34,126 nt of DNA, taken from NCBI GenBank assembly GCA_012522575.1, contig JAAYKE010000140.1:1-34126 (forward strand), in the 5' to 3' direction. Below the pieces are notes generated by a model. It was not told where the DNA came from. It did no database searches and saw nothing but the letters and a program-made list of their open reading frames with translations. A program made the position numbers and the translations under genes. The first letter of the stretch is position 1. Every line of letters begins with the position of its first letter. Below are positions 6,540-25,638 of this stretch, piece by piece. The stretch is from Armatimonadota bacterium. GTDB taxonomy: Bacteria; Armatimonadota; UBA5829.

Positions 6540-7663
6540 TGCGCCACCTCCGTCACCAACCTTGCCACCAATCCCGCATCGGCAAATTCTATATCCTGCG
6601 GCACATTTTGACCCATAGTCAGACAAGCGAGCGGCAAGCCGGAGATTATGGGCAGATTGACCAACGCGGCGCGATCGCGGGATTCATCAATTTTCGTCAC
6701 CACAAGTTTATTTGGCGACAACGCGGCCATCCTCTCCAGCACCTCATTTTGCACGGCGCGACTTTGAGAGGCGGATACGCAGAGGTATATGTCCGTGGGA
6801 TCAGCCGCATCGACGAATGTCTTCAATTCATCGAGATGTTCGCCATTGCGCTGACTGCGCCCGACCGTATCTATCAGCACCACGTCTTTATCGGCGTGCT
6901 TCTCGACCCCTGCGGCGACTTCGTCCGGGGAGAGGGCAATTTCCAGCGGCAAACCCATAATTCGCGCATAGGTGCGAAGTTGTTCGACGGCTCCTATCCT
7001 GAACGTATCCGCAGTGACCAGAGCCGTCTTTTTGCCCTGCTCTATGGCGAATTTGGCCGCCAGTTTTGCCAGAGTGGTGGTCTTTCCGACGCCGGTCGGC
7101 CCGATTATGGCTATAACCTGCCTGCCGTCAAACGAGGGAGGCGCGGCATACGCCTGCATTTTGCCGGCCAAAGCGGATGCCATCTCGACCGCGTTATCCA
7201 CATCTGACAAATCGGCCAGAACGCCGCTGGCGATTTTGTCATCTATGCCGAGTTCGACAAGCATGCCTGCGGTGTGATTGCCGGGCTGCGGATGGGCGGT
7301 AAGCAATCTGCGGACGACTTCGCCGAGATCATTTATTTGATCTTGAATCTGCTTCATATTGGCCGTTGCCTCAACAGGGCCGGCAGACTCTTCTTTTACG
7401 GAGCCGACATAGGCGCTTACCGCCGCCCTTGCAGGAACGGCATTGCCGCACATATCGGCCTGAGGCGCGGGAGATTGTGGTGAGTCCACGGATAAATCAT
7501 CCACCGCGGCCATAAGCTCAACCCGTGTCGATCCGCCCAATCCCAATACGCCGCCGGCTTTAACATACTTGCTGTTAAGCACGATAGCATCTTCTCCGAG
7601 TTCGGCGCGAGCCTGAGCCAGCGCATCGGGCATTGTGTTTGCCTGAAATGTTTTAATACGCAT
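6536..7663 (-). CDS. flhF: FlhF, SRP-type GTPase for flagellar placement
   Basis: 375 residues from ATG 7663 (MRIKTFQANTMPDALAQ), the usual FlhF N-terminal B domain; an upstream extension has no family support. A low-complexity linker covers about residues 55-100. The NG domain follows: P-loop GPTGVGKTTT near residue 188, then TADTFRIGAVEQLRTYA, the DTVGRSQRN G3 region and VVTKIDES (TKxD, G4). FlhF binds GTP, dimerises at the membrane and recruits FliF to the assembly site. The start overlaps the flhA 3' end by 11 bp and the stop overlaps the flhG start by 4 bp, so all three should be translationally coupled. Confidence 0.95.
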   Translation of the reverse strand: MRIKTFQANTMPDALAQARAELGEDAIVLNSKYVKAGGVLGLGGSTRVELMAAVDDLSVDSPQSPAPQADMCGNAVPARAAVSAYVGSVKEESAGPVEATANMKQIQDQINDLGEVVRRLLTAHPQPGNHTAGMLVELGIDDKIASGVLADLSDVDNAVEMASALAGKMQAYAAPPSFDGRQVIAIIGPTGVGKTTTLAKLAAKFAIEQGKKTALVTADTFRIGAVEQLRTYARIMGLPLEIALSPDEVAAGVEKHADKDVVLIDTVGRSQRNGEHLDELKTFVDAADPTDIYLCVSASQSRAVQNEVLERMAALSPNKLVVTKIDESRDRAALVNLPIISGLPLACLTMGQNVPQDIEFADAGLVARLVTEVAQ

Positions 7664-9755
7664 TAGTCGAAGCCACCAATCCTTCGTCAAGTGTGACCAA
7701 TCCAATAGATTCGATGTTAACGTCCGGGGCTATCTCCGCATAGGAGAGAACCGCCACCGTCGGGAAGCTCTGTTCTATCAGCCTGCGCATGTGCAGACGG
7801 GTTCTCGGCGAACATAGCATTACAGGCTCGTGGCCCTGCTGCGCCATAAGCTCGATCTGGTCACGAACTCCTGTCAGCAATTCCTGTACCCGACCGGGGT
7901 CCAGTATGAGCCGCGCTCCCAGTTCCGTCTGTCGAATGCCATCGACTATAACCTGCTCCACTCCGGGATGGAGGGTGAAGACGGTTAATGTTCCGTCATC
8001 AGCCGCATAGCGACGACATATCGCCAGCCCGAGGCGCTGTCGAACATATTCGGTCAATATGTCGGTATCCTTGGTCGATGGAGCGAAATCGGCGAGGGCT
8101 TCCAGAATCGTTACTATATCCTTAACCGAGACCCTCTCCCGCAGCAGGTTCTGCAGCACTTTTTGCACATCGCCGAGGGCCATAGCTTCCGGAATCAGTT
8201 CGTTTACTACAGCGGGAGCTTCCTGCCGGGCTGCGTCTACAATATCCTGCGTCTCCTGACGTGTGAGCAGTTCGGCGGAGTGTCTGCGGACGATTTCCGT
8301 AAGGTGAGTGACCAGCACTGTCGTCGGCTCCACCACGGTATAGCCCGCCACCTCAGCAAACATTTTCTGGCCTTCGGCGATCCACGTAGCCGGAAGCCCG
8401 AAGGCCGGCTCTGTGGTTTCTATTCCGGTGAGCTTGTCCGTTGCTGCTCCCGGGTTCATAGCGAGGTATTGTTCGGGGAATATCTCTCCACGCGCGGTCT
8501 CTGTGCCGCGGAGTCTGACCACATATTCGTTTGAGCCTAACTGCACGTTGTCCCGCACTCTTATGGCCGGAACCAGCACGCCCATCTCCATTGCCGCCTG
8601 CCTTCTGATCATGGTGATTCTGTCCAGCAAATCTCCGCCCTGCTTGGGGTCAGCCAAAGGTATCAGGCCGTAGCCAATTTCCAGGGTAAGGGGATCGACG
8701 CCGATGAGATCGGTCATAGATTCCGGAGCTTTGGGGGCGTCGTGCTGCTGCTCTGTGCGACGCTTTTCATCTTCCTGTGCCTGCTTTTCGCTCTGTGAAA
8801 GCATATAAGCGGCGGTGGCGCACATTGTAGCCGCCAGAAGCAGAGGCATCTTGGGCATTCCCGGCACGACCATCATAACCGCGAAGACCGCCGCCGTAAT
8901 TGAAAGGGCCTTTGGTTTGGAGCAAATCTGGGTGATAAGCTCGTAGCCGAGACTCTTCTCACCCCCGTTTTTGGTCACCATAAGACCCATAGCGGTCGAT
9001 ACCAGCAATGCGGGAATCTGAGTGACGAGGCCTTCGCCGACGGTAAGCAGCGTGTAAGTCTGCAGGGCATCGGTGAGATTCATGCTGCGCTGGGCTACGC
9101 CGACGACGAATCCGCCGATGATATTTACGATGATCATTATTATGGCGGCAATGGCGTCCCCTCGAACGAACTTTCCGGCTCCATCCATCGCGCCATAGAA
9201 GTCTGCTTCTCTGGATATTTCCACGCGCCTGTGCCTGGCCTGCGTTTCGTCAATCAAGCCCGCGCTGAGGTCTGCATCGATGGCCATTTGCTTCCCCGGC
9301 ATAGCGTCGAGCGTAAACCTGGCCGCGACCTCGGCTACCCTGCCCGCGCCTGAGGTGATTACAATGAACTGGATGATAACGAGGATGGCAAAGACCACTA
9401 TGCCGACCACATAGTTGCCTCCGACTACCACTGATCCGAATGACGTGATCACCTGTCCCGCGCTTGAGTGCAGAAGAATAAGTCGCGTGGCGGAAACGTT
9501 GAGCGCAAGCCTGAACAGCGTGGTCATCAGCAGCATCGACGGAAACGAGCTGAACTCCAGCGGCTGAGAGGTATACATCGTCACAAGCAGGATCGAAAGC
9601 GCGAGGGCAATGTTTGCGCACAGCAGAATATCGAGCAGCCAGTGCGGCATTGGAAGGATCATCATTCCAACCACCATAACCGCGGCTGCCGCGACCATTA
9701 CATCGCTGTGACGTCCGATAAATCCGAGATTGGGTTGTGCAGTAGTCTCATTCAT
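7653..9755 (-). CDS. flhA: FlhA, flagellar export gate ring protein
   Basis: 700 residues from ATG 9755 (MNETTAQPNLGF); a TTG further upstream lies inside an inverted repeat and is less likely. About eight transmembrane helices occupy the first 320 residues. The conserved FHIPEP cytoplasmic loop is seen as RREADFYGAMDGAGKFVRG-type sequence (READFYGAMDGAGKFVRGDA). The C-terminal cytoplasmic domain (about 340-690) contains VLCSPRTR-like sequence (PVMLCSPRTRLHMRRLIEQ), typical for chaperone docking. FlhA forms a nonameric ring of the type III gate and uses proton-motive force. The ORF continues directly into flhF. Confidence 0.96.
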   Translation of the reverse strand: MNETTAQPNLGFIGRHSDVMVAAAAVMVVGMMILPMPHWLLDILLCANIALALSILLVTMYTSQPLEFSSFPSMLLMTTLFRLALNVSATRLILLHSSAGQVITSFGSVVVGGNYVVGIVVFAILVIIQFIVITSGAGRVAEVAARFTLDAMPGKQMAIDADLSAGLIDETQARHRRVEISREADFYGAMDGAGKFVRGDAIAAIIMIIVNIIGGFVVGVAQRSMNLTDALQTYTLLTVGEGLVTQIPALLVSTAMGLMVTKNGGEKSLGYELITQICSKPKALSITAAVFAVMMVVPGMPKMPLLLAATMCATAAYMLSQSEKQAQEDEKRRTEQQHDAPKAPESMTDLIGVDPLTLEIGYGLIPLADPKQGGDLLDRITMIRRQAAMEMGVLVPAIRVRDNVQLGSNEYVVRLRGTETARGEIFPEQYLAMNPGAATDKLTGIETTEPAFGLPATWIAEGQKMFAEVAGYTVVEPTTVLVTHLTEIVRRHSAELLTRQETQDIVDAARQEAPAVVNELIPEAMALGDVQKVLQNLLRERVSVKDIVTILEALADFAPSTKDTDILTEYVRQRLGLAICRRYAADDGTLTVFTLHPGVEQVIVDGIRQTELGARLILDPGRVQELLTGVRDQIELMAQQGHEPVMLCSPRTRLHMRRLIEQSFPTVAVLSYAEIAPDVNIESIGLVTLDEGLVASTNAY

Positions 9756-9768
9756 CGTTTGTCTGTCA

Positions 9769-9799
9769 GAGCGTTTGAACGCTCCAACGTCCAAACGCT
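9769..9799. repeat. Intercistronic inverted repeats between flhB and flhA
   Basis: Outer arms AGCGTTTG (9770-9777) and CAAACGCT (9792-9799) are perfectly complementary and reach into the flhB stop codon. An alternative overlapping palindrome, GAGCGTT-TG-AACGCTC, lies at 9769-9784. The two foldings exclude each other. There is no T tract, so this looks like an mRNA processing or stability element rather than a terminator. Confidence 0.6.
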
Positions 9800-10862
9800 A
9801 CGCTTTTCTCAGTTTGTGGCTCAGTTTGTAGACATAAGCCAGTATTTCGGCGACTGCCTGATACAGATCGGCAGATATTTCCTGTCCGATTTCGACGGAC
9901 GCGAAAAGGGTTCTCGCCAGTTGGACGTTTTCCACTATAGGGACGCCCGCCTCGGCCGCTATGTCTTTGATTCGCTGAGCGATCAGCCTCTGGCCTTTTG
10001 CGACTACAATCGGCGCGGCGGACTGCTCGGAATCGTATTTCAGCGCGACTGCATAGTGGGTCGGGTTGGTGACAACCACATCCGCTTTCGGCACTTCCCG
10101 CATCATCCGCTGGCCTGAGATTTCTCGCTGTTTCTGTCGAATCCTCGACCTCAGCAGCGGGTCTCCCTCTGTTCGCTTGTAGTCCTCCTTGACCTCTTGT
10201 TTCGTCATTCGCAGTTGTTTTTCGAGCTGCGTCTTTTGAAACACATAATCAAGGGCCGCTATCACAAACAAGCACAGAGCCGATCTCAGCAGCAGATTCC
10301 ACGTAAGCCCGCCGATCGCCGAACACGATGTGAGATAATCCGCACCCACCAGGCTCTGAATGTCGGTGTGTTTGTCCCGTAGAAACGAGAATACAATGTA
10401 GCCGACAATCACGATTTTCGCGACCGACTTGAGCAGCTCGACTCCGGCTCTTGCGGAAAACATCCGGGTGATCCCTGTGATGGGATTTAATCTTTCCGCT
10501 TTGAACTGAAGCGCCTTGGCGGAAAATACCAACCCCACCTGCAGCGCACTGCTCGCGAACCCTACTATGGCCACCCCTATCAGCAGGGGCGCGATAGCCG
10601 TGCCGGTCTGCAGCAATAACCGTGCCAGGTAGCTCGAGAGGCCGGGGATAGTGAAGTCCTGTGATGGAAAATTGGTGAACGAGTCGGTGGCGATTCCTTT
10701 TAGGCAGGAGACTATGGACGGGCCGGAAAGCTTGATCAGTATCAACGCTGAGATCAGCACCATCGCCGATCCTAACTCCATACTGCGCGCAACCTGTCCT
10801 TCTTCGCGGGCTTCCTGCCTCCTGCGCGGGGTTGGGGCCTCGGTTTTGTCCTCTAGCGCCAT
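9798..10862 (-). CDS. flhB: FlhB, flagellar export switch protein
   Basis: 354 residues, normal length. The N-terminus is typical (MALEDKTEAPTPRRRQEARE). Four transmembrane helices lie between about 30 and 210. The autocleavage motif NPTH is intact at residues 266-269 within VVTNPTHYAVALKYD. Cleavage between Asn and Pro switches export from rod/hook to filament substrates, together with FliK, which is also in this cluster. The ATG directly follows the fliR stop (TAAATG), implying coupling; the FliR-FlhB pair is often adjacent and sometimes fused. Confidence 0.97.
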   Translation of the reverse strand: MALEDKTEAPTPRRRQEAREEGQVARSMELGSAMVLISALILIKLSGPSIVSCLKGIATDSFTNFPSQDFTIPGLSSYLARLLLQTGTAIAPLLIGVAIVGFASSALQVGLVFSAKALQFKAERLNPITGITRMFSARAGVELLKSVAKIVIVGYIVFSFLRDKHTDIQSLVGADYLTSCSAIGGLTWNLLLRSALCLFVIAALDYVFQKTQLEKQLRMTKQEVKEDYKRTEGDPLLRSRIRQKQREISGQRMMREVPKADVVVTNPTHYAVALKYDSEQSAAPIVVAKGQRLIAQRIKDIAAEAGVPIVENVQLARTLFASVEIGQEISADLYQAVAEILAYVYKLSHKLRKA

Positions 10863-11954: not shown

Positions 11955-11976
11955 GCCCTTAACGCCGTTTGAGGGC
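11955..11976. repeat. Intercistronic hairpin between fliP and fliQ
   Basis: Arms GCCCT and AGGGC flank an inner AAC/GTT pairing; the hairpin touches the fliP stop codon. No T tract is present, so read-through into fliQ is expected. Confidence 0.5.
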
Positions 11977-12752
11977 TAATGGAAGCTCATCGCCAGCGAT
12001 CTGGCAACGAGATGCCAGCCATCGACCATAACAAACAACAATATCTTGAACGGAAGCGATATCAGCACCGGCGGCAGCATCATCATGCCCATAGACAACA
12101 GGGTGACTGAGACTACCATGTCAATAATCAAAAACGGTATAAATATAACGAAGCCGATAGTGAACGCCGTTTTAAGCTCGCTTATCAAAAATGCCGGTAT
12201 GAGGGTGGTCATCGCCAAATCCGCCTCAGTGTGTGGCCGGGGCGCACGAGACAGGGACACGAACAAGGCTACGTCCTTCGGCCTTGTTTGTTTGAGCATA
12301 AACGACTTGAGCGGCACACAGGCATTGTCGGTGGCCTGGTCAAATGATATCTGGTGTTTTACGTATGGCTGCAGCGACGTTGTGTTTATAGACTGCAATA
12401 CCGGAGCCATAGTAAAGAACGTCAGAAACAACGCCAGCCCGATCAGAACCGTATTGGGCGGGACCTGCGGGGAACCTAGCGCGCTGCGCGTAAAGGACAG
12501 CACAATTATTATGCGAGTGAAGGAGGTCAGCATAATCAGCAGCGCGGGAGCGAGTGACAACACGGTCAGAATCAGAAGTATCTGGATGCTGCTGGAGACC
12601 TGCTCCGGCCCTTTGGCCTGTCCCAATCCGATCTGAATGTTTGGGACCACCGTTTGGGCGCAGGCGGCGGAGGCGTTTATGAGCGCGAAAGCCGCGGCGC
12701 TGAGAATTGTGGCAAGGCTGCTATTTGATTTCCGCATTCTGCGACTAAGCAT
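11976..12752 (-). CDS. fliP: FliP, export gate membrane protein
   Basis: 258 residues including a cleavable signal sequence ending near ASAACAQ, as in many FliP proteins. The core contains the family segments MLTSFTRIIIVLSFTRSALG and PHTEADLAMTTLIPAFLISE, followed by the final hydrophobic pair with FKILLFVMVDGW. FliP forms the pentameric centre of the export pore. Starts at 12752 or 12737 are both possible; the first overlaps the fliO stop by 8 bp and so favours coupling, while the second gives the shorter signal peptide. Confidence 0.95.
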   Translation of the reverse strand: MLSRRMRKSNSSLATILSAAAFALINASAACAQTVVPNIQIGLGQAKGPEQVSSSIQILLILTVLSLAPALLIMLTSFTRIIIVLSFTRSALGSPQVPPNTVLIGLALFLTFFTMAPVLQSINTTSLQPYVKHQISFDQATDNACVPLKSFMLKQTRPKDVALFVSLSRAPRPHTEADLAMTTLIPAFLISELKTAFTIGFVIFIPFLIIDMVVSVTLLSMGMMMLPPVLISLPFKILLFVMVDGWHLVARSLAMSFH

Positions 12753-13413
12753 TCTTGAACTTCTTTCTCAGCCTGCCAAGCTCCAGAACTTTGTCCTGCA
12801 AAAATGCACTGGAGCCGCGAATCATGCCTGCCACGCTCTGAGTCAGGGAGTCGGCGGAGGTATCGTTACCCATAAACTTCGAAAGATGCCCGGAAAAAGC
12901 GCCGCCTTTGTCGGTTTCATCTGCGGAGCCATCGGCGACCGCCTGACCGGCCGCTGATGCATCCACTTCGGTCAGCAGATTTATCTTGCTCGGGGTGGAT
13001 GATATGAGCAGGGTTTTGTCGCCGACCTCTATTATGTGAAGAGAACGGTTCGCTCCCAACGACGCATTTTCCACCACCTTTACGATGTTGGAGTTGTTAC
13101 CCTTCAATGCGCCGACGTTGAGACGCTTCAGCGCATAAATAGTGCCGTAGGCCAGCGCAACCACCACCGCCAGCTTGAAAATAAAGCTCAGCAGGGTTAT
13201 ATAGACCGGCTCCTGCTTTACCGCAGGCTCAGCGTCAGCCGCCTGCCGGTTTGCAGCTTCGGCTTCCATTCTTGAGATTAGATCCGGGCCGCTTGCCTGA
13301 TCTTTGGCTGCATCCGCCGCATACGCAGCCGACGCTATGGCCGCTGCAAACAGCAGGACCGCCGCCAGCCCGATTATCCATCTGGACTTATCAAACTCAG
13401 GCAGCCAGCGCAT
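12745..13413 (-). CDS. fliO: FliO, assembly factor for the FliP export pore
   Basis: 222 residues. An N-terminal signal-like helix (about 12-33, ending ASAAYA) is followed by a short extracytoplasmic region, a transmembrane helix (about 72-92, LLSFIFKLAVVVALAYGTIYAL) and a cytoplasmic domain. That domain has the FliO pattern VVENASLGANRSLHIIEVGDKTLLIS. The C-terminal extension after about residue 140 is poorly conserved. FliO scaffolds FliP during pore assembly. It overlaps fliN by 17 bp and fliP by 8 bp. Confidence 0.88.
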   Translation of the reverse strand: MRWLPEFDKSRWIIGLAAVLLFAAAIASAAYAADAAKDQASGPDLISRMEAEAANRQAADAEPAVKQEPVYITLLSFIFKLAVVVALAYGTIYALKRLNVGALKGNNSNIVKVVENASLGANRSLHIIEVGDKTLLISSTPSKINLLTEVDASAAGQAVADGSADETDKGGAFSGHLSKFMGNDTSADSLTQSVAGMIRGSSAFLQDKVLELGRLRKKFKNA

Positions 13414-13867
13414 CGGATTCTCTTGCTTTCCCGCTGATAATTTCAGTTATCCTGACGCCGAAGTTCTCGTCGATTACAACCACCTCGCCGCGAGCCACCA
13501 TTTTATTGTTCACGACAATTTCTACGGCTTCCCCTGCGTGTTTGTCTAATTCAACAACGGAGCCTGGCCCCAAGCCCAACACATCTCGCACGCGCATAAC
13601 GGATCGTCCCAACTCCACCGACACCTGCACGTTTACATCCATAATCAAATCAACTCCGCTGCCGGTAACGTTATCAGCTCCGGCTCCAAGTTGGCCAAAT
13701 GCAACTGATGGAACCACCGGATCGGAGTTTTGTTTTGCCTGCGATTGATCCACCGGCTGCCGATCGCTGACAAGTTCCGAATCTGCGCAGGGAGATGCCG
13801 CGTCTTGTTCGGATCCGGCTTTGATCAACTCCTGCAATTCTTCTTTGGACAAGGCTTCATCAGACAT
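13397..13867 (-). CDS. fliN: FliN, C-ring switch protein (single SpoA domain)
   Basis: 156 residues from ATG 13867. The GGAGG site lies just upstream of this ATG and inside a slightly longer reading, which decides the start. The first 70 or so residues are acidic and low-complexity, after an EELQELI-like helix. The SpoA domain (about 72-150) has VQVSVELGRSVMRVRDVLGLGPGSVVELD and MVARGEVVVIDENFGVRI. FliN tetramers form the base of the C ring and bind FliH. There is no CheC-like phosphatase part, so it is not FliY, and it lacks the FliM N-terminal region. fliM, normally directly upstream, is missing. Confidence 0.93.
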   Translation of the reverse strand: MSDEALSKEELQELIKAGSEQDAASPCADSELVSDRQPVDQSQAKQNSDPVVPSVAFGQLGAGADNVTGSGVDLIMDVNVQVSVELGRSVMRVRDVLGLGPGSVVELDKHAGEAVEIVVNNKMVARGEVVVIDENFGVRITEIISGKARESDALAA

Positions 13868-13888
13868 CTTTGAGTCCTCCATAACGGC

Positions 13889-13914
13889 GTCATTATTCGC
13901 GCCGCATATATGAC
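13889..13914. repeat. Imperfect hairpin in the fliL-fliN gap
   Basis: Arms GTCATTAT and ATATATGAC pair with a single-base bulge around a GC-rich loop. It occupies most of the 49-bp gap in which fliM would be expected. It ends just before the fliL stop (13917-13919). No T tract follows on the transcribed strand. Confidence 0.4.
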
Positions 13915-13916
13915 TT

Positions 13917-14363
13917 TCACTGCATAGCGAAGTCAGAGAAATATACGTTCTGCACCCGCACGGTTTTCAGACATTTTTCGCAGGCGGTCACAAGCTCGGT
14001 CTTAAGCTGTTCTTTGCCGCACGGTTTATTGATTTCGGCGAGACGCTTGCTGCTGAGCACGCTTATTATCGCGTCGCGCAGCGGGGCCTTAACCGCAGTA
14101 TCATCTCCCTCAGTTGTCGGCAGTTTGCCGGTGACTTCAAGGATAATATCCGTCTTGAGGTAATGTATTTCCGGCGTGTCCGCCAGGTTTACGATAAGCT
14201 CCCCTATCGGCAGCATATCGCCCGGCTCCTCTACTACGGGGATTTTTCCCTTTGGCGGAGGAGCTTTCTTCTGAAGCACCGCAACGCCTGCCACCGCGCA
14301 GGCAATGACCATTACAATTGCCATGATAATGATCGCAACTTTTCCCTTAGTGCCTACTGACAT
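13917..14363 (-). CDS. fliL: FliL, stator-associated membrane protein
   Basis: 148 residues with one N-terminal transmembrane helix (about 8-30), a proline-rich linker (KKAPPPKGKIPVVEEPG) and the extracytoplasmic FliL domain with LPIGELIVNLAD and HYLKTDIILEV. The C-terminus (VRQVYFSDF-like, here VQNVYFSDFAMQ) is typical. FliL surrounds MotA/MotB stators and supports torque under load. It starts two bases after the motB stop with an SD site inside the motB end. Confidence 0.92.
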   Translation of the reverse strand: MSVGTKGKVAIIIMAIVMVIACAVAGVAVLQKKAPPPKGKIPVVEEPGDMLPIGELIVNLADTPEIHYLKTDIILEVTGKLPTTEGDDTAVKAPLRDAIISVLSSKRLAEINKPCGKEQLKTELVTACEKCLKTVRVQNVYFSDFAMQ

Positions 14364-14365
14364 TC

Positions 14366-15265
14366 TTACTTCTCCCTGTCTGTATCCATATCATAGGATC
14401 CCGGCCTTTGTTCGGTCTGAGTATTTGCACGCGATTTTGCGCCCGATGTATTCTCGCTGGGCGTGTTTTTATTGGAGGCTTTGTTGCTTTCCGCAACAGC
14501 CCGGGCTGCAATGTCCGGTTTGATTGCGGGCGGCGGCGGCGCGATATCTTCGCGGGCCAGGATCACAATATCGACCCGTCGATTTTTGCGTCTGTTTGCC
14601 TCCGAATCATTTGTCGCGACAGGGTGCGTGCCCGCATATCCCGCCGCCGAGAACATTGCCGCATTCAAACCCTTGTCCTCGACGAGATATCTGAGCACGT
14701 TAGTAGCCCTGGCGGTCGAAAGCTCCCAGTTTGTGGGATACCTGCCTCCCAATCGAGGCGGAAGGTTGCAGGTGTGTCCCTCCACGCGCACGTTATTGTC
14801 TATTTTGACAAGCAATTCGGCTATCTTATTGAGCAGAGGCAGCGCGTGTTCGCGTATATCGGCGCGTCCGGAATCAAACAGCATATTGTCGCTGAGCATG
14901 CTGATTACCACGCCTCTGTTGTCGATGGTGACCCGTGCATTCTGTTTGAGCTGAGGGTCCATTTTTATATATTTGATCAACGGGTCGATCATTTGCCAGG
15001 TCGACACCGTTGTATCTCCGCCCATCGGCGAAGGCTTGGGAGAAAAGGACCCGGTTGTCCCCAGTATCGACTTGCCCTGCCCGCTGACGATGCCGCCAAA
15101 GCCACTGCGAATTGAGACAGCGGCTTCTCTGAACTTTGATAAATTGAGCACAGACATCGAGTACATCATAATAAAGAACGCCATAAGCAGCGTGATCATA
15201 TCAGCGTATGTCAGCAGCCATCGCTCGCTGTTTTCGTGGCCAGAATCGGCCTTTTTCTTTCTCAT
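14366..15265 (-). CDS. motB: MotB, stator protein with altered peptidoglycan-binding motif
   Basis: 299 residues. One transmembrane helix near the N-terminus carries the proton-binding Asp22 (LLTYADMITLLMAFFIMMYS). The OmpA-like domain covers about 110-240 and includes LLFDSGRADIREHALPLL-type sequence and NWELSTARATNVLRYL. The normally invariant Asp of the HTD loop is Cys166 here (EGHTCNLPP; codon at 14768-14770), while the ARA arginine of the LSxxRA motif is kept. Both residues normally hold diaminopimelate in peptidoglycan. A disordered, polar tail of about 55 residues follows. It overlaps motA by 4 bp (ATGA). The family is certain; how firmly it anchors to the wall is open. Confidence 0.94.
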   Translation of the reverse strand: MRKKKADSGHENSERWLLTYADMITLLMAFFIMMYSMSVLNLSKFREAAVSIRSGFGGIVSGQGKSILGTTGSFSPKPSPMGGDTTVSTWQMIDPLIKYIKMDPQLKQNARVTIDNRGVVISMLSDNMLFDSGRADIREHALPLLNKIAELLVKIDNNVRVEGHTCNLPPRLGGRYPTNWELSTARATNVLRYLVEDKGLNAAMFSAAGYAGTHPVATNDSEANRRKNRRVDIVILAREDIAPPPPAIKPDIAARAVAESNKASNKNTPSENTSGAKSRANTQTEQRPGSYDMDTDREK

Positions 15266-16071
15266 GCTGCGAGAGCTTCCTCATGGGCCGCAGCCGTCGG
15301 CCTGTCGGCTTCGATTTTGTCTCTAATTGCCGGCGGCAGGAACGCCATCATTCTGGTTTCCACTATTCGAGCGTTGTCCCCGGCCTGGATCGAGAGGACT
15401 CCTTCGATAATCATTTCGCAAGCTACCACTTCCTCAGCGGTATTAGTCCTGAGCTTGCCCGCAATCGGGAGATATACGAGGTTGGCAAACATGACGCCAT
15501 ACAGCGTAGCAACAAACGCGGTTGCGATCGCGTGTCCCATCTCTCCCGGCTCCGAAAGTTTTGCAAGCATGTTAATCAACCCGATTACCGTGCCGATGAT
15601 GCCCAGTGTCGGGGAGAACCCGCCCAGAGACGAGAAGAACGTTTCGCCAACCTTGTGGCGCTCCTGCATGCCGATTACTTCTGTTTCCAGTATTTCTCGA
15701 AGCATAACACTTGGGGTTCCGTCTACTACCAGCATAACGCCTTTACGCAGGAATTCGTTGTCCACCTCCTGCACGGCGACCTCGAGGCTGAGCACTCCTT
15801 CACGGCGGGCCTTTCGAGCAAAGCCGACCATAGTCCTGATCAGCTCCGGCGGGTTCATGACAGTTCCCTTGAACGCGCTGCGCACAATCGCCGGCAGGGA
15901 AAAGAGGGTCTTGATGGACGTGCCGGCTATGGCCGCGCCGATTGTGCCGAATACTACCAGCACAAACGCCGGCGTATTGACCAGCGATCCAAAGCTGCCG
16001 CCCTCCAAAATGACGGCAATTACCAAAGCTCCCCAGGCGATCACTATTCCGAGAATTGTTGCTATGTCCAT
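15262..16071 (-). CDS. motA: MotA, stator proton-channel protein
   Basis: 269 residues with four transmembrane helices and a large cytoplasmic loop. The conserved loop charges are seen in FARKARREGVLSLE, which hold the Arg and Glu that act on the FliG torque helix. The proline-containing helix 3 (GFSPTLGIIGTVIGLINML) and helix 4 (ATLYGVMFANLVYLPIAGKL) are intact. It has no sign of Na+-type divergence that I can judge with certainty. The start lies inside the flbD 3' end, and motB begins within its stop. Confidence 0.96.
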   Translation of the reverse strand: MDIATILGIVIAWGALVIAVILEGGSFGSLVNTPAFVLVVFGTIGAAIAGTSIKTLFSLPAIVRSAFKGTVMNPPELIRTMVGFARKARREGVLSLEVAVQEVDNEFLRKGVMLVVDGTPSVMLREILETEVIGMQERHKVGETFFSSLGGFSPTLGIIGTVIGLINMLAKLSEPGEMGHAIATAFVATLYGVMFANLVYLPIAGKLRTNTAEEVVACEMIIEGVLSIQAGDNARIVETRMMAFLPPAIRDKIEADRPTAAAHEEALAA

Positions 16072-20242: not shown

Positions 20243-20833
20243 TCAGGGCGTAAAGTAATCGTCTCTATATGAGAGCACTTTCGCCACGTAGTTTTGTGTC
20301 TCTCGATAGGGTGGCACGCCGCCGTACTTCGCCACGCTGCCGGGGCCGGCGTTATACGCGGCAAGCGCAAGATCGACATCGCCGTAACGATCTAGCTGTT
20401 GTTTGAGATATCTCGTGCCGGCATCGATATTCTGAGCGGGGTCAAACGAATCGGTGACGCCCAGCGTCCTTGCGGTTGCCGGCATCAGTTGCATCAACCC
20501 CTGTGCGCCCGCAGAGGAAATTGCGTTGGGATTGAAGCTGCTCTCCGCTTGAATTACTGCCTTAATGAGCGAGGCATCTACTCCGTGTTTTGCGCCGGAG
20601 GCTTCTATGAGATCATCGTAAGCGGAATTTGAGGGAGCGGATGCGGCATTCGCAGAAAGCTGATGCGCCTGAAGCAGGTACTGCGGAAAAAACGGCTGCA
20701 GGGCGTCGCGTTTAATAGCCGGGCCCGCAGTAGAATGCGAGACTACTCCAACAGCCCCTTCCTGTCCGGGATGAGCGAACCTTGCCTTTATTTCCCCTAT
20801 TCTGGCAAGCACGGCAGAGAGGTTTTCCAGCAT
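20243..20833 (-). CDS. Lytic transglycosylase (SLT domain) of the flagellar cluster
   Basis: 196 residues from ATG 20833, which follows AGGAGG by five bases and shares one base with the fliJ stop. The SLT domain (about 75-190) is intact: catalytic Glu97 in [16 protein letters not shown], then [14 protein letters not shown] and [12 protein letters not shown]. Such enzymes open peptidoglycan so the rod can pass. There is no Sec signal peptide, so export through the flagellar apparatus itself is likely. The N-terminal 70 residues are linker-like. It takes the role played by the FlgJ muramidase or SltF elsewhere. Confidence 0.92.
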
Positions 20834-21279
20834 CACATCCTCCTTGCGTAGGCGAGCGATGCGATTTCATCGAGCGTGCTTTGTTCGATTCGAGCCTGCT
20901 CTGCAATATATTCGATTTCTTTGCGATCACGCAGGGCTTCGATCAATTTTCTCTGCTTCATCGCTTCTGCGACCTCATCACGTTTTTCGTCGAGGCGTTT
21001 TTTTATGGCCTCGATGGTGAGTATTTGGACCTTTATATCGTCACGCAGCGCCTTCGCCCAGGTGTCGCATATCTCGAACGCACCCGCTGACGAATCGCCG
21101 CTCTCAGTTAACTTATCGAAAAACTGCCACGCATGCTTTAGCTCTATTTGCAATTTGCGCAGACATGCCTTCTCCTGCGACTCCTCGCGAAGCAGTTCGG
21201 CAAGCTGCGCCTGAAGCAGATTCTCTTTTGATTTCCGCTGATCAAGCAGCGTCTGCAGTTTGAACTGAAACTTCCTCAC
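20833..21279 (-). CDS. fliJ: FliJ, export ATPase stalk protein
   Basis: 148 residues from GTG 21279 ([20 protein letters not shown]), which matches the usual FliJ start; a TTG at 21300 gives seven more residues without family support. The whole protein is a charged, antiparallel coiled coil. FliJ sits in the FliI hexamer like the gamma subunit of F1 and links it to FlhA. It overlaps fliI by 38 bp. Confidence 0.88.
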
Positions 21280-22606
21280 TGTCCCCGAATATCTCCCCAA
21301 GGGCTATTCCCGCCGCTTCGAAATCAGATGGTTCATCGACTCCCTGCCGCAAAAATGAGTTGACCTCGTCTATCTTGCTCAGCGCGTAGTCTATTCCGGG
21401 ATTGCTGCCCGATACGTAGGCTCCGATGTTGATGAGGTCTTCACTGGTGCGATATGTCGAGAGCACATCGCGCAGCCTGCCCGCACGCATTCGTCTTTCA
21501 GGCTCGGTGATCTCCGGCATCAACCTGCTTACGCTGGATAACACGTCGATTGCGGGATAATGGTTGCGCGCAGCCAAGTCACGGCTAAGCACAATATGTC
21601 CGTCCAATATGCCGCGGACGGTGTCGGCGACCGGCTCGTTCATGTCGTCGCCTTCCACTAAAACGGTGTAAAGGCCGGTGATCGATCCCTTTGAGCTTGT
21701 CCCGGACCTTTCCAGCAAAGATGGAAGCACGGCAAAGACCGATGGAGTGTAGCCGCGTGTTGTGGGGGGTTCCCCGGAAGCCAGGCCAATTTCACGCTGC
21801 GCCCAGGCGACTCGTGTTACGGAGTCCATCATCAGCAACACGTCCAGTCCCAAATCCCGAAAATACTCGGCGATGCCGGTTGCCACTTGCGCGCCTCGAA
21901 GACGTACGACCGGAACCGTATCGGAGGTAGCCACGACCACCACCGACCGCGCCAGACCCTCCTCCCCAAGGTCTCTTTCAATAAAATCTCGAACCTCGCG
22001 ACCTCGTTCGCCTACCAGCCCAATCACATTCACATCGGCGGAGGTATTGCGAGCCATCATCCCCAACAGTGTGCTTTTTCCCACTCCGCTGCCCGCGAAT
22101 ATGCCCACCCTCTGTCCGCGGCCTATCGTAAGCAACCCGTCGATCGCTCGCACTCCCAAAGACAGGGGTTCTGATATGCGCTTTCGATTCAATGGGTGTG
22201 GCGGCTGACCTGCCGCGCATATCGTCTGCTCACCAACTATCGGGCCTTTGCCGTCAATCGGATTGCCCAGACCATCCAGAACACGTCCTAAAAGCGCGTG
22301 TCCGGCTGGCGCTTGAAGTTGAGAGCCGGTAGACACCACCGAGCAATCCGGGCGGATATTGGCGACGCTTCCGAACGGCATCAATAATGTCCGGCCCTCG
22401 CGAAACCCGACGACTTCGGCGCTGACGCTCTCCTCGTTGCGCCCGCTCTCTATGAGGCATAGCTCACCCACGCTGCAGGCCGGGCCTTGAGATTCCACCA
22501 GGACGCCGATGACCTGCACAACGCGACCGTTAATCCGGCAGGTGTCCGTCCGCTTTATCGTCTCCCGGTATTTGGGCAGGTTCAGTATTCGTTTGGCTGA
22601 ATTCAT
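21242..22606 (-). CDS. fliI: FliI, flagellar export ATPase
   Basis: 454 residues, normal for FliI. It has an N-terminal beta-barrel domain ([16 protein letters not shown]), the Walker A GSGVGKST at about 172-179, the [15 protein letters not shown] segment, Walker [18 protein letters not shown], and the C-terminal region with [15 protein letters not shown]. It is a paralogue of F1 beta and powers export with FliH and FliJ. It overlaps fliH by 77 bp, an unusually long overlap that suggests tightly coupled expression; the start might be slightly later. Confidence 0.97.
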
Positions 22607-23267
22607 TGTTGAATGCGTCCATCAGCTTTCTGCGTATTTGCTCCATTTGAGTTTCAATGCGCGCATCGAACTCCCCGGATGGCGATTCGACGACGCAACC
22701 GCCTGCCGATATTCGCCTGTCGTCAACAATGTTGAGTTCGCGCAGGTGTTCCGCTGCGCTTAGAAGCTCGTCTCTTGTGGCGCGCAGATGCGCAACCTCA
22801 GCGGGGTTTACTCGAACGGTGGCCTCGTCTCTGACTTTGAGCCGACGCAGGCACATCTTGAGGGTGCGGGCTACAACCTGCGGGGTTGTCTTGATCTCGT
22901 GCCTGATGATCTTCTCGGCGATATCCACGCACAGCGTCAGCGCATGCTCCTCTATCGAATCGACAAGCTCCGCGCGTTCCTGCGATTCTTGTTCTATTGC
23001 GGCTTGCAGCTCCCCGAAAAGCTCATCGAATGATCGATCCGCAGCTTTGATTCCTGCGTCGTAACCATCGGCATACGCGCTGTCCATAAGCGCCCTTGCT
23101 TCGGACTCCGCCGTTCGGACGATCAACTCGCACTGCTGCTTTGCCCTGGAGATAATGTTATCCGGGTCGAGTTTGGCTTCGATTTCTTCCTCAAAAGAAT
23201 CCGGGCTGAGTAGCAGCGGTCTGGAATCGAACAGATGACCCGGGCCGGATTTGATAACTTTGCTCAT
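22530..23267 (-). CDS. fliH: FliH, export ATPase regulator
   Basis: 245 residues. A long helical region with spaced small residues ([20 protein letters not shown]) leads into the C-terminal domain ([49 protein letters not shown]), which is the FliH/V-ATPase E-like fold. FliH dimers bind FliI and dock it on FliN. The last 30 residues are polar and overlap fliI. The start overlaps the fliG stop by 4 bp. Confidence 0.93.
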
Positions 23268-24040
23268 GACTGGCTCCCGACGCCGGTCAGGGCAGCCTGA
23301 CGCATCGTCTCGACGACCTTGCTTTGCGCATCCTCGACCTCTCGGATTTTCAGACGCGCCGATGACTGTAGTTGCTCACGCATAAGTTGCGCGGTCGCAG
23401 AAGGCAGGTTTCGCAGGACTGCATCCGCTACATCCTGACTTGCCACCCTTAGACTCAGGCTCAGATCATCAATTTCGACGTTTTCAAGTAAAGCGCGGAT
23501 TTGATCGTCAGACAAGCCGACAAGGTCATCTAAAGATGTGATTTCCGTTCTGGATTGTCCAGCCGAATCTGCATTGGGAGGCGCGTCGAACCGCTGGCGC
23601 ATAAGGCCATCGACCGCAGCAATGACGTCCGGCGATGCGTTATTCCTGCCGGCAAGGCTTTTCACTACTTTGTCCCGGCAGCTATCATCCAACCTAGCCA
23701 GTACCAGCGCAGCAGCTTTGGAGGAGAGATGCGAAAGGACAAGCGCAATTGTATTAGGACGCTCCCCGGCAATGGCATTGGCGATTTCGGTCGGTTGGCG
23801 ACTTTCGAGCCAGCCAAATGGGCGGGTATTTGATTGTTTTATAGCCGCGCTCACCTCGTCGAGCACCTGGTCACGAACAACCGACCTGACCGAGCGCATC
23901 CTGACGATCTGCGCGCCAAGCAGTTCGCGCTCGTGCGGGCTTAGTCGATCGAGTACCGCCTGCGAGGCGCCGGCGTCCAACGACATCAATAGAATGGAAG
24001 CCTTTTGCAGGCCGCTGAGTTTTTCTTCTGTCGCTATCAT
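23264..24040 (-). CDS. fliG: Reduced FliG, C-ring rotor protein
   Basis: 258 residues against about 335 in the family. The N-terminal domain that binds FliF is recognisable (LQKASILLMSLDAG). The middle domain begins at ERPNTIALVLSHL, where EHPQ is the family motif. Compared with E. coli, roughly 40 residues before this and about 30 after residue 152 are missing; the second gap removes the GG hinge and first helices of the C-terminal half. The MFxF hinge is ITSL (167-170). In the torque helix, K264, D288 and R297 correspond to Arg198, Glu222 and Lys231, but R281 and D289 correspond to Ala215 and Gln223. The C-terminal LKIREVEDAQSKVV is kept. Reading frame and overlaps look intact, so this is a diverged gene rather than a broken one. 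Confidence 0.88.
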   Translation of the reverse strand: MIATEEKLSGLQKASILLMSLDAGASQAVLDRLSPHERELLGAQIVRMRSVRSVVRDQVLDEVSAAIKQSNTRPFGWLESRQPTEIANAIAGERPNTIALVLSHLSSKAAALVLARLDDSCRDKVVKSLAGRNNASPDVIAAVDGLMRQRFDAPPNADSAGQSRTEITSLDDLVGLSDDQIRALLENVEIDDLSLSLRVASQDVADAVLRNLPSATAQLMREQLQSSARLKIREVEDAQSKVVETMRQAALTGVGSQS

Positions 24041-24045
24041 TTATC

Positions 24046-25638
24046 CTATTTTTCCGCCATCCACGATCTCACCAGCCGAGCCAGATCCTCCGGATTCGAC
24101 TCACTTACCTCCGGCGGCAGTTCGCTCTTTGAACCGCTCTCTGACTGTGCGGTATGCGGCTCCGTGCGCTCGGGCTGCATTTGCGCAACCGCCTGAGCAA
24201 CTGATGTATGTTCCGCCTCTTCTTTGACCGCTGCGGACGGGTTTGTTGCGGGAGCCTGCAGCTTTATGCCCATCACAATGGATCGCAGCAGCAGGAGAAA
24301 TCCTATCAGGAGTATTACCGCGCCGGCGTTCTTGGCGATGGTGGCGATCAACTCATTTCTTGAAGCGGTTGCCATCTCTTTGGCGACCTGTTTTTGAGTT
24401 GACGTGTCGAAGGCCACGGCCTGCACAGTCACCTGATCGCCACGGTCTTGATCGATGCCAGCGGCAGCATTTACCGCCTGGCGGATGTGCCCCACCTGTA
24501 TGCCGCTGACCGATTTATCCACCAGCACAGCCACAGAAAGTCTTTTCACCTGTCCCGGAGCAACCGTCGTTTCTTCGATGGTTTTGCTGACCTGGTATAG
24601 GGCCGTGGTCGTGGAGCGGCTGTATTTATCGCCGGTCGATGAACTGATACCCGTCGTCACACCTTGTATCGCGGGAGGGATCACCGAACCGCTGTAGTCC
24701 TCACTTGAGGTCTCCTGAGAGAGCATCACGCCTGTCGCGGATTGGCCTGTATCCTGCTGGCTGCCGACTCGTTCGGAGGCGGGCTGATAGGTTTCGGACC
24801 TGGTCTGCCTCTGGTCAAAATTCATGTCCGCGCTGACACGAACGACCGCTTTATCGGCTCCGACGATTCTCGTCAGCATGCTCTGCAGGTTGTGCGCTAC
24901 TTCATTTTCGTACTGCCGCTTGAGCTTCGACTGGCTGGCATTGAGCATGCCATGCGAGCCGGAGGATGAGGACTCGCTGAGCACGTTGCCATCCTGATCT
25001 ATCACATCGACGTTTTCGGGTTTCAGCCCTTCGACCGCGCTTGCTACAAGGTGCACGATGCCTCCGACCTGTTCGTCGGAGAGCGGCACGCCGCGGCGGA
25101 TTTTCAACGCTATCGAGGCTTTAGCGGGCTGCTGTTCGCTAGCAAACACCTTGTCCTCTGGCAAACTGATATGAACTCTGGCGCTGAGCACAGGCCGCAG
25201 TTGTGAGATTGTGCGAGTCAACTCCCCGGAAATCGCCCGCTGGTAGTTGAGTTTTTCGGCGAACTCGGTCATGCCGAAGTTGCTCTTATCGAACAATTCG
25301 AAGCCCACGCTTCCGCCTTGCGGCAGTCCTTGAGTAGCCATCTTCAGGCGCAGGTCGTGGACTTTATCCGCCGGCACTTCGATAGTGCCTCCATCGCCGG
25401 TAAGCTGATACGGAACCTTATCGTCGTTGAGCTTTTGCGCAATCGCGCCCGCATCCTCCCCTGCCAGACCGGAAAATAACACGGCCATACGAGGCTTGGA
25501 GGCAATCATGGTAACAAATGTCCCAACCACAACCGCAACTGCGACGAATGCGACCACCACAGCGCGTTGCGCACTGCTGAGGTCGTTCCATAGTCTCCCC
25601 AGGGCTGCAAAAGGCCCCAGTTTCTTTAACTGATCCAT
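24046..25638 (-). CDS. fliF: FliF, MS-ring protein
   Basis: 530 residues. Transmembrane helices lie near 25-46 and 437-460. Between them are the ring-building motifs: LFSGLAGEDAGAIAQKL, MTEFAEKLNYQRAISGELTRTI and LRPVLSARVHISLPEDKVF. The cytoplasmic tail ends with NPEDLARLVRSWMAEK, the helix that binds FliG. Length and motifs are normal, in contrast to FliG. A GGAGAG site precedes the ATG. Confidence 0.96.
   Translation of the reverse strand: MDQLKKLGPFAALGRLWNDLSSAQRAVVVAFVAVAVVVGTFVTMIASKPRMAVLFSGLAGEDAGAIAQKLNDDKVPYQLTGDGGTIEVPADKVHDLRLKMATQGLPQGGSVGFELFDKSNFGMTEFAEKLNYQRAISGELTRTISQLRPVLSARVHISLPEDKVFASEQQPAKASIALKIRRGVPLSDEQVGGIVHLVASAVEGLKPENVDVIDQDGNVLSESSSSGSHGMLNASQSKLKRQYENEVAHNLQSMLTRIVGADKAVVRVSADMNFDQRQTRSETYQPASERVGSQQDTGQSATGVMLSQETSSEDYSGSVIPPAIQGVTTGISSSTGDKYSRSTTTALYQVSKTIEETTVAPGQVKRLSVAVLVDKSVSGIQVGHIRQAVNAAAGIDQDRGDQVTVQAVAFDTSTQKQVAKEMATASRNELIATIAKNAGAVILLIGFLLLLRSIVMGIKLQAPATNPSAAVKEEAEHTSVAQAVAQMQPERTEPHTAQSESGSKSELPPEVSESNPEDLARLVRSWMAEK

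Follow-up and report, generated by a model that had tools for sequence, protein, structure and literature searches.

The question raised by this locus is whether a flagellar gene cluster in which fliL runs directly into fliN belongs to a motor that lacks FliM, or to one whose fliM lies elsewhere; the preliminary description had offered both possibilities. The window, i.e. the whole stretch of DNA analysed (34,126 nucleotides), is the entire contig C121 of G000, a draft genome of 3.06 Mb in 189 contigs that is about 100% complete. We searched 15 members of the window's family of uncultured Armatimonadota for FliM, FliN and FlhA. Profile searches found FliM and FliN in 11 of the 15, and no FliM, FliN or FlhA match was obtained in the other four. 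Outside the family, the comparison included G015 from the same order, G022, G026 and G027 from family f5, and G019 from family f4; G001 is the sister species of G000 in the same genus. The whole comparison is built on draft metagenome assemblies. In the following, FliG1 denotes the FliG encoded in the cluster and FliG2 the canonical FliG encoded away from it.

The genes around the junction are read from the minus strand in the order motA, motB, fliL, fliN, fliO and fliP (Table 1). The fliN start at 13867 is shared with the sister species (MSDEALSKEEL) and leaves 49 nt between fliL and fliN, and an alternative upstream ATG at 13882 leaves 34 nt; the gap is genuine and leaves no room for fliM or for a large remnant of the gene. 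The PF02154 profile gave zero matches on the window contig, where the sole SpoA match (PF01052) is FliN, confirming that fliM is absent from between fliL and fliN and that there is no FliM-like sequence anywhere in the window. In all 11 flagellated family genomes fliL directly precedes fliN, with a spacing of 9–174 nt, and because the same junction recurs across all of them, it can be attributed neither to chance nor to a local assembly break. The gap is 1038–1462 nt long in G015, G022, G026, G027 and G019, where fliM fills it. Several further observations concern gene content along the cluster. A lytic transglycosylase (SLT domain) gene lies between fliJ and fliK (20243–20836), a position conserved in several genomes of the class. 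At G016 locus L193 (4529–5705), motA codons 1–241 run almost straight into fliP codon 116, with motB, fliL, fliM, fliN, fliO and the start of fliP missing, owing to either a deletion or a misassembly. Genus g3 (L082 in G003, L087 in G007) has a divergent MotA, with 40% identity to that of the window, and G003 yielded no MotB match, which may point to a different stator.

Table 1. Positions of the flagellar features discussed; coordinates are those of the window unless another contig is named.
Feature	Coordinates	Strand	Remarks
fliP	11976..12752	-	PF00813
fliO	12745..13413	-	PF04347
fliN	13397..13867	-	Single SpoA and N-terminal EIDAL-like motif (MSDEALSKEELQELI); PF01052 92 bits; TIGR02480 105 bits, above cut-off
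fliL–fliN junction	13868..13916	-	Site occupied by fliM in fellow class members
fliL	13917..14363	-	PF03748, 69.8 bits
motB	14366..15265	-	PF13677, PF00691
motA	15262..16071	-	PF01618, PF20560
fliH	22530..23267	-	PF02108; directly after fliF in genus g3 (G003)
FliG1 gene (in-cluster fliG)	23264..24040	-	258 aa, degenerate; FliG_N 1-65/104 only; M and C domains recognised
fliF	24046..25638	-	MS ring, expected FliG partner; named by place and homology to relatives' fliF
fliG-cheX-fliM module of G022	L078 (G022:C155) 7432-10046		Separate from the complete native flagellar cluster

A full-genome search for FliM, which the preliminary description had set as the test of a FliM-less motor, found a full-length gene in G000 itself, on contig C96 (29307–30284), encoding 325 amino acids from a conserved start. 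Across the genome it is the one match to PF02154, and it shares PF01052 only with the FliN of the window. The alignment covers positions 1–191 of 192 in PF02154 (111 bits, cut-off 27) and 3–72 of 73 in the C-terminal SpoA domain PF01052 (63 bits); the match to the equivalog TIGR01397 spans 2–319 of 320 with 215.3 bits, against a curated cut-off of 219.6. The N-terminal EIDAL motif, which binds CheY-P, is intact (LSQSEVDALL; GELLSQSEVDALL). In the alignment the protein lacks the canonical GGxG motif, which we take to be the contact with the middle domain of FliG, and reads LLAGGAAPS in its place; the site is GGVA, GGSA or GAPR in relatives, as opposed to GGPG or GGFG in G047 and G019. The gap in the window is the only observation that favors a C ring without FliM, in which the motor would run on FliG and FliN, and given a FliM gene in G000 itself and in each of the 11 flagellated members of the family we regard such a ring as extremely improbable. 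A second flagellar system was also considered and rejected, given one FlhA per genome.

In a draft of 189 contigs with fliM 56 nt from a contig end, the picture could be due to an assembly or binning artefact, either because fliM was dropped from the window contig or because the C96 gene comes from another organism. This explanation is scarcely credible: the same junction occurs in 11 separate assemblies, the GC content is 52% on C96 versus 54.6% in the window, and the neighborhood recurs in G001, where the glycosidase-like gene c96_24 (69%) is followed by fliM (81%) and then by a guaA-like gene. A binning error in particular is unlikely, because the sister species has the same fliM neighbor. 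The displacement extends to the whole family, as fliM lies on a different contig from the flagellar cluster in 11 of 11 flagellated members, including G003 and G008 with about 20 contigs each. The surroundings of the displaced gene differ among genera. In g2 and g4 it is located inside a chemotaxis operon, cheA-cheR-cheY-cheX-fliM-cheC-cheD-cheB (fullest reading in G008), whose CheX, CheC and CheD have their best matches among Thermotogales models, below the curated cut-offs; in g3 it adjoins an rpoN-like gene and in the window's genus the glycosidase-like gene. None of the family members has more than one FliM gene; G014 gives two matches, which come from one broken gene. Of the two possibilities raised at the outset, the one stating that fliM has moved elsewhere thus holds, and does so family-wide, and the one stating that the motor lacks it falls with the C96 gene: in the whole family fliM is displaced outside the flagellar cluster, not absent.

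The canonical fliG is displaced as well. FliG2 is encoded off the cluster in 10 family members; in G000 it is found at C167:3659–4678, with 339 amino acids, 348.8 bits to the FliG equivalog TIGR00207, and domain matches over 1–101/104 (FliG_N), 1–74/76 (M) and 2–108/108 (C). FliG1 of the window falls below the cut-off of the same equivalog (128.8 vs 226.7 bits). The best stretch covers only about 1–65 of the 104 FliG_N positions in the in-cluster copies of the family that were tested and in that of G022, a genome that has a second FliG besides; FliG_N is near-complete in the displaced FliGs and in the single FliGs of G015 and G026. In the alignment, the in-cluster FliG of the family is without the MFxF motif and the GPVR segment, both of which are kept in FliG2. 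Between the two species of the genus, dN/dS is saturated for fliG1, and identities were compared in its place, giving 54% for FliG1 and 87% for FliG2 and indicating that the in-cluster protein diverges much faster than FliG2 within the genus. The GGxG and EHPQ motifs have roles in the contact between the two proteins. FliG2 reads ERPQ where others read EHPQ, and a FliM without GGxG facing a FliG2 with ERPQ may represent a co-changed contact.

In G003 of genus g3 the in-cluster fliG is cleanly gone, so that fliF is followed by fliH. Eight genomes retain FliG1 as an open frame of 254–333 amino acids, in which all three FliG domains could be recognised wherever this was tested, and the protein may for this reason still be needed. 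That frame, together with the division of labor in Borrelia, where FliG2 is needed for assembly and FliG1 for torque (PMC7225975), makes it conceivable that FliG1, far from being a relic, serves as a specialised second FliG in an assembly, polar or regulatory role. We put this at somewhat less than an even chance, considering the fast divergence of FliG1, the absence of half of its FliG_N domain and the loss of the gene in genus g3.

The origin of the displaced genes can be approached through G022, which belongs to another family of the class and carries, besides a complete cluster that includes a native fliG and fliM, a separate fliG-cheX-fliM module (Table 1). The FliM of the module groups with the displaced FliM of the family (tree support 100/99), and its FliG groups with FliG2 (98/96; 93/83 in the reduced set). 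On the best reading, the in-cluster copies were superseded by a separate switch module, one module supplying both displaced genes being the simplest history. In the family ancestor, a working fliG (FliG2) and a full-length fliM would have taken up a place apart from the main flagellar cluster, most likely beginning as a single fliG-cheX-fliM module of the kind still present in G022; arrival of FliG2 and FliM together is the most likely course, rather than fliM moving alone. The in-cluster fliM would then have been lost, bringing fliL next to fliN, and the in-cluster fliG would have been either kept in a shortened and fast-evolving form, as in the window, or lost, as in genus g3.

Alternatively, the fliM of the cluster could have been simply re-inserted elsewhere in the family ancestor, with fliG duplicated independently and the G022 module acquired by horizontal transfer from a relative of the family. 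Such a history would fit the absence of any family member with two FliM genes as well as the FliM tree calculated without the extra copy of G022, which agrees with a control tree built from eight further flagellar proteins; in that control the family stands apart from f2, f3 and f5 (100/100), contrary to the order-level classification. On the other hand, it calls for three separate events in place of a single module that accounts for both genes, the coexistence of two FliG copies in the family indicates that duplicates did arise, and fliG, cheX and fliM adjoin in G022. We consider simple relocation a serious contender, but on balance less likely than not. A topology that unites both FliM types in a single clade was not rejected by an AU test (p = 0.30). 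The AU value of 4e-6 for family FliM versus G015 FliM is not taken as proof of paralog replacement: because the control tree shows the same separation, the distance between these two proteins is no proof of paralogy. Placement tests for FliG1 gave p values of 0.13–0.25, and it could descend from either FliG line. As a separate observation, the eight-protein tree groups f2 and f3 with f5 instead of with f1, to whose order they belong (AU p ~1e-104), which suggests transfer of whole flagellar clusters.

Taken together, we assign a probability of about 80% to the reading that fliM is displaced, that the canonical fliG and fliM, both off the cluster, likely once formed one module, and that the C ring is an ordinary one. 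G000 has one FlhA, one FliM, one FliN and two FliG genes. A normal FliM ring is very probable for this motor. The expected arrangement is FliF–FliG2–FliM–FliN, in which FliG2 would carry torque and bind the displaced FliM; the FliF of the window ends in DLARLVRSWM. A more far-reaching and tentative proposal is that the class has exchangeable rotor-switch modules, a native in-cluster FliG/FliM pair and a chemotaxis-linked fliG-cheX-fliM set, the latter having fully replaced the former in the family, with the shortened FliG possibly acting as a second rotor component. Under the same proposal, and with the same reserve, the native FliM would be the form whose CheY motif is degenerate where no CheA is found.

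The preliminary description had also stated that FliN has a single SpoA domain and no FliM or FliY parts. The single SpoA domain stands: Pfam gives SpoA alone, with no CheC-like domain ahead of it, the criterion for FliY. The second part does not, as the N-terminus of FliN, encoded at 13823–13867, carries an EIDAL-like motif of the CheY-binding type (ALSKEELQELI), which reads VLSQAEIEALL, VMSQEEIEALM or VISQAEIEALI in sister genera; comparison of N-termini did not find it in the FliN of G015, G022, G026 or G027. Both FliM and FliN would offer EIDAL-type N-termini to CheY-P. EIDAL-like motifs are known sporadically in FliN and FliY (PMC6946799). An intact CheY motif in FliM occurs mostly in genomes with CheA, and the motif is degenerate in the CheA-less G015, G026 and G027; in G022 it is degenerate in the in-cluster FliM and intact in that of the module. 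The window's genus is the exception. Searches of the whole genomes found neither CheA nor CheW in G000 or G001, nor was CheC or CheX found in the genus, and both species have the flagellar cluster as well as a FliM whose CheY motif is intact. With no CheA or CheW found, classical chemotaxis input may not reach the switch.

Had the motor been FliM-less, FliM could no longer have been regarded as a core part of the C ring; the claim of such a motor fails, cautioning that gene order alone is a poor ground for inferring the absence of a gene. What emerges is that two core switch genes of this lineage have left a flagellar gene order that is among the most conserved; one of the two, fliM, joined a chemotaxis operon, and an altered second FliG persists. 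The lineage is well suited to asking how a rotor ring gets replaced subunit by subunit. The predicted ring resembles that of E. coli and Salmonella in its full-length FliM with the LSQxE(I/V)DALL N-terminus and the middle and SpoA domains, in a canonical FliG (here FliG2) and in a single-SpoA FliN. It differs in that fliM and the canonical fliG lie off the cluster, a degenerate second FliG lies within it, FliM lacks GGxG and FliG2 has ERPQ instead of EHPQ. The g2/g4 operon that hosts fliM encodes CheX, CheC and CheD, as in Thermotoga-type chemotaxis, but with fliM between cheX and cheC. In the literature on a second fliM, two FliG proteins or a lost fliM, the only precedents found were Borrelia and Campylobacter. 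Borrelia likewise has a single flagellar system and a genome that encodes two FliG proteins (PMC7225975), whereas here the second FliG goes together with a fliM that is itself displaced, and half of the N domain is missing from the in-cluster copy. The Campylobacter C ring of FliM, FliY and FliN is similarly a non-standard set that arose via duplication, and EIDAL-like motifs likewise occur in some FliN and FliY proteins, but in Campylobacter a FliN-like protein was duplicated and here FliG, next to one FliM and one FliN (PMC6946799). Both are partial precedents for the combination of departed switch genes and an altered second FliG.
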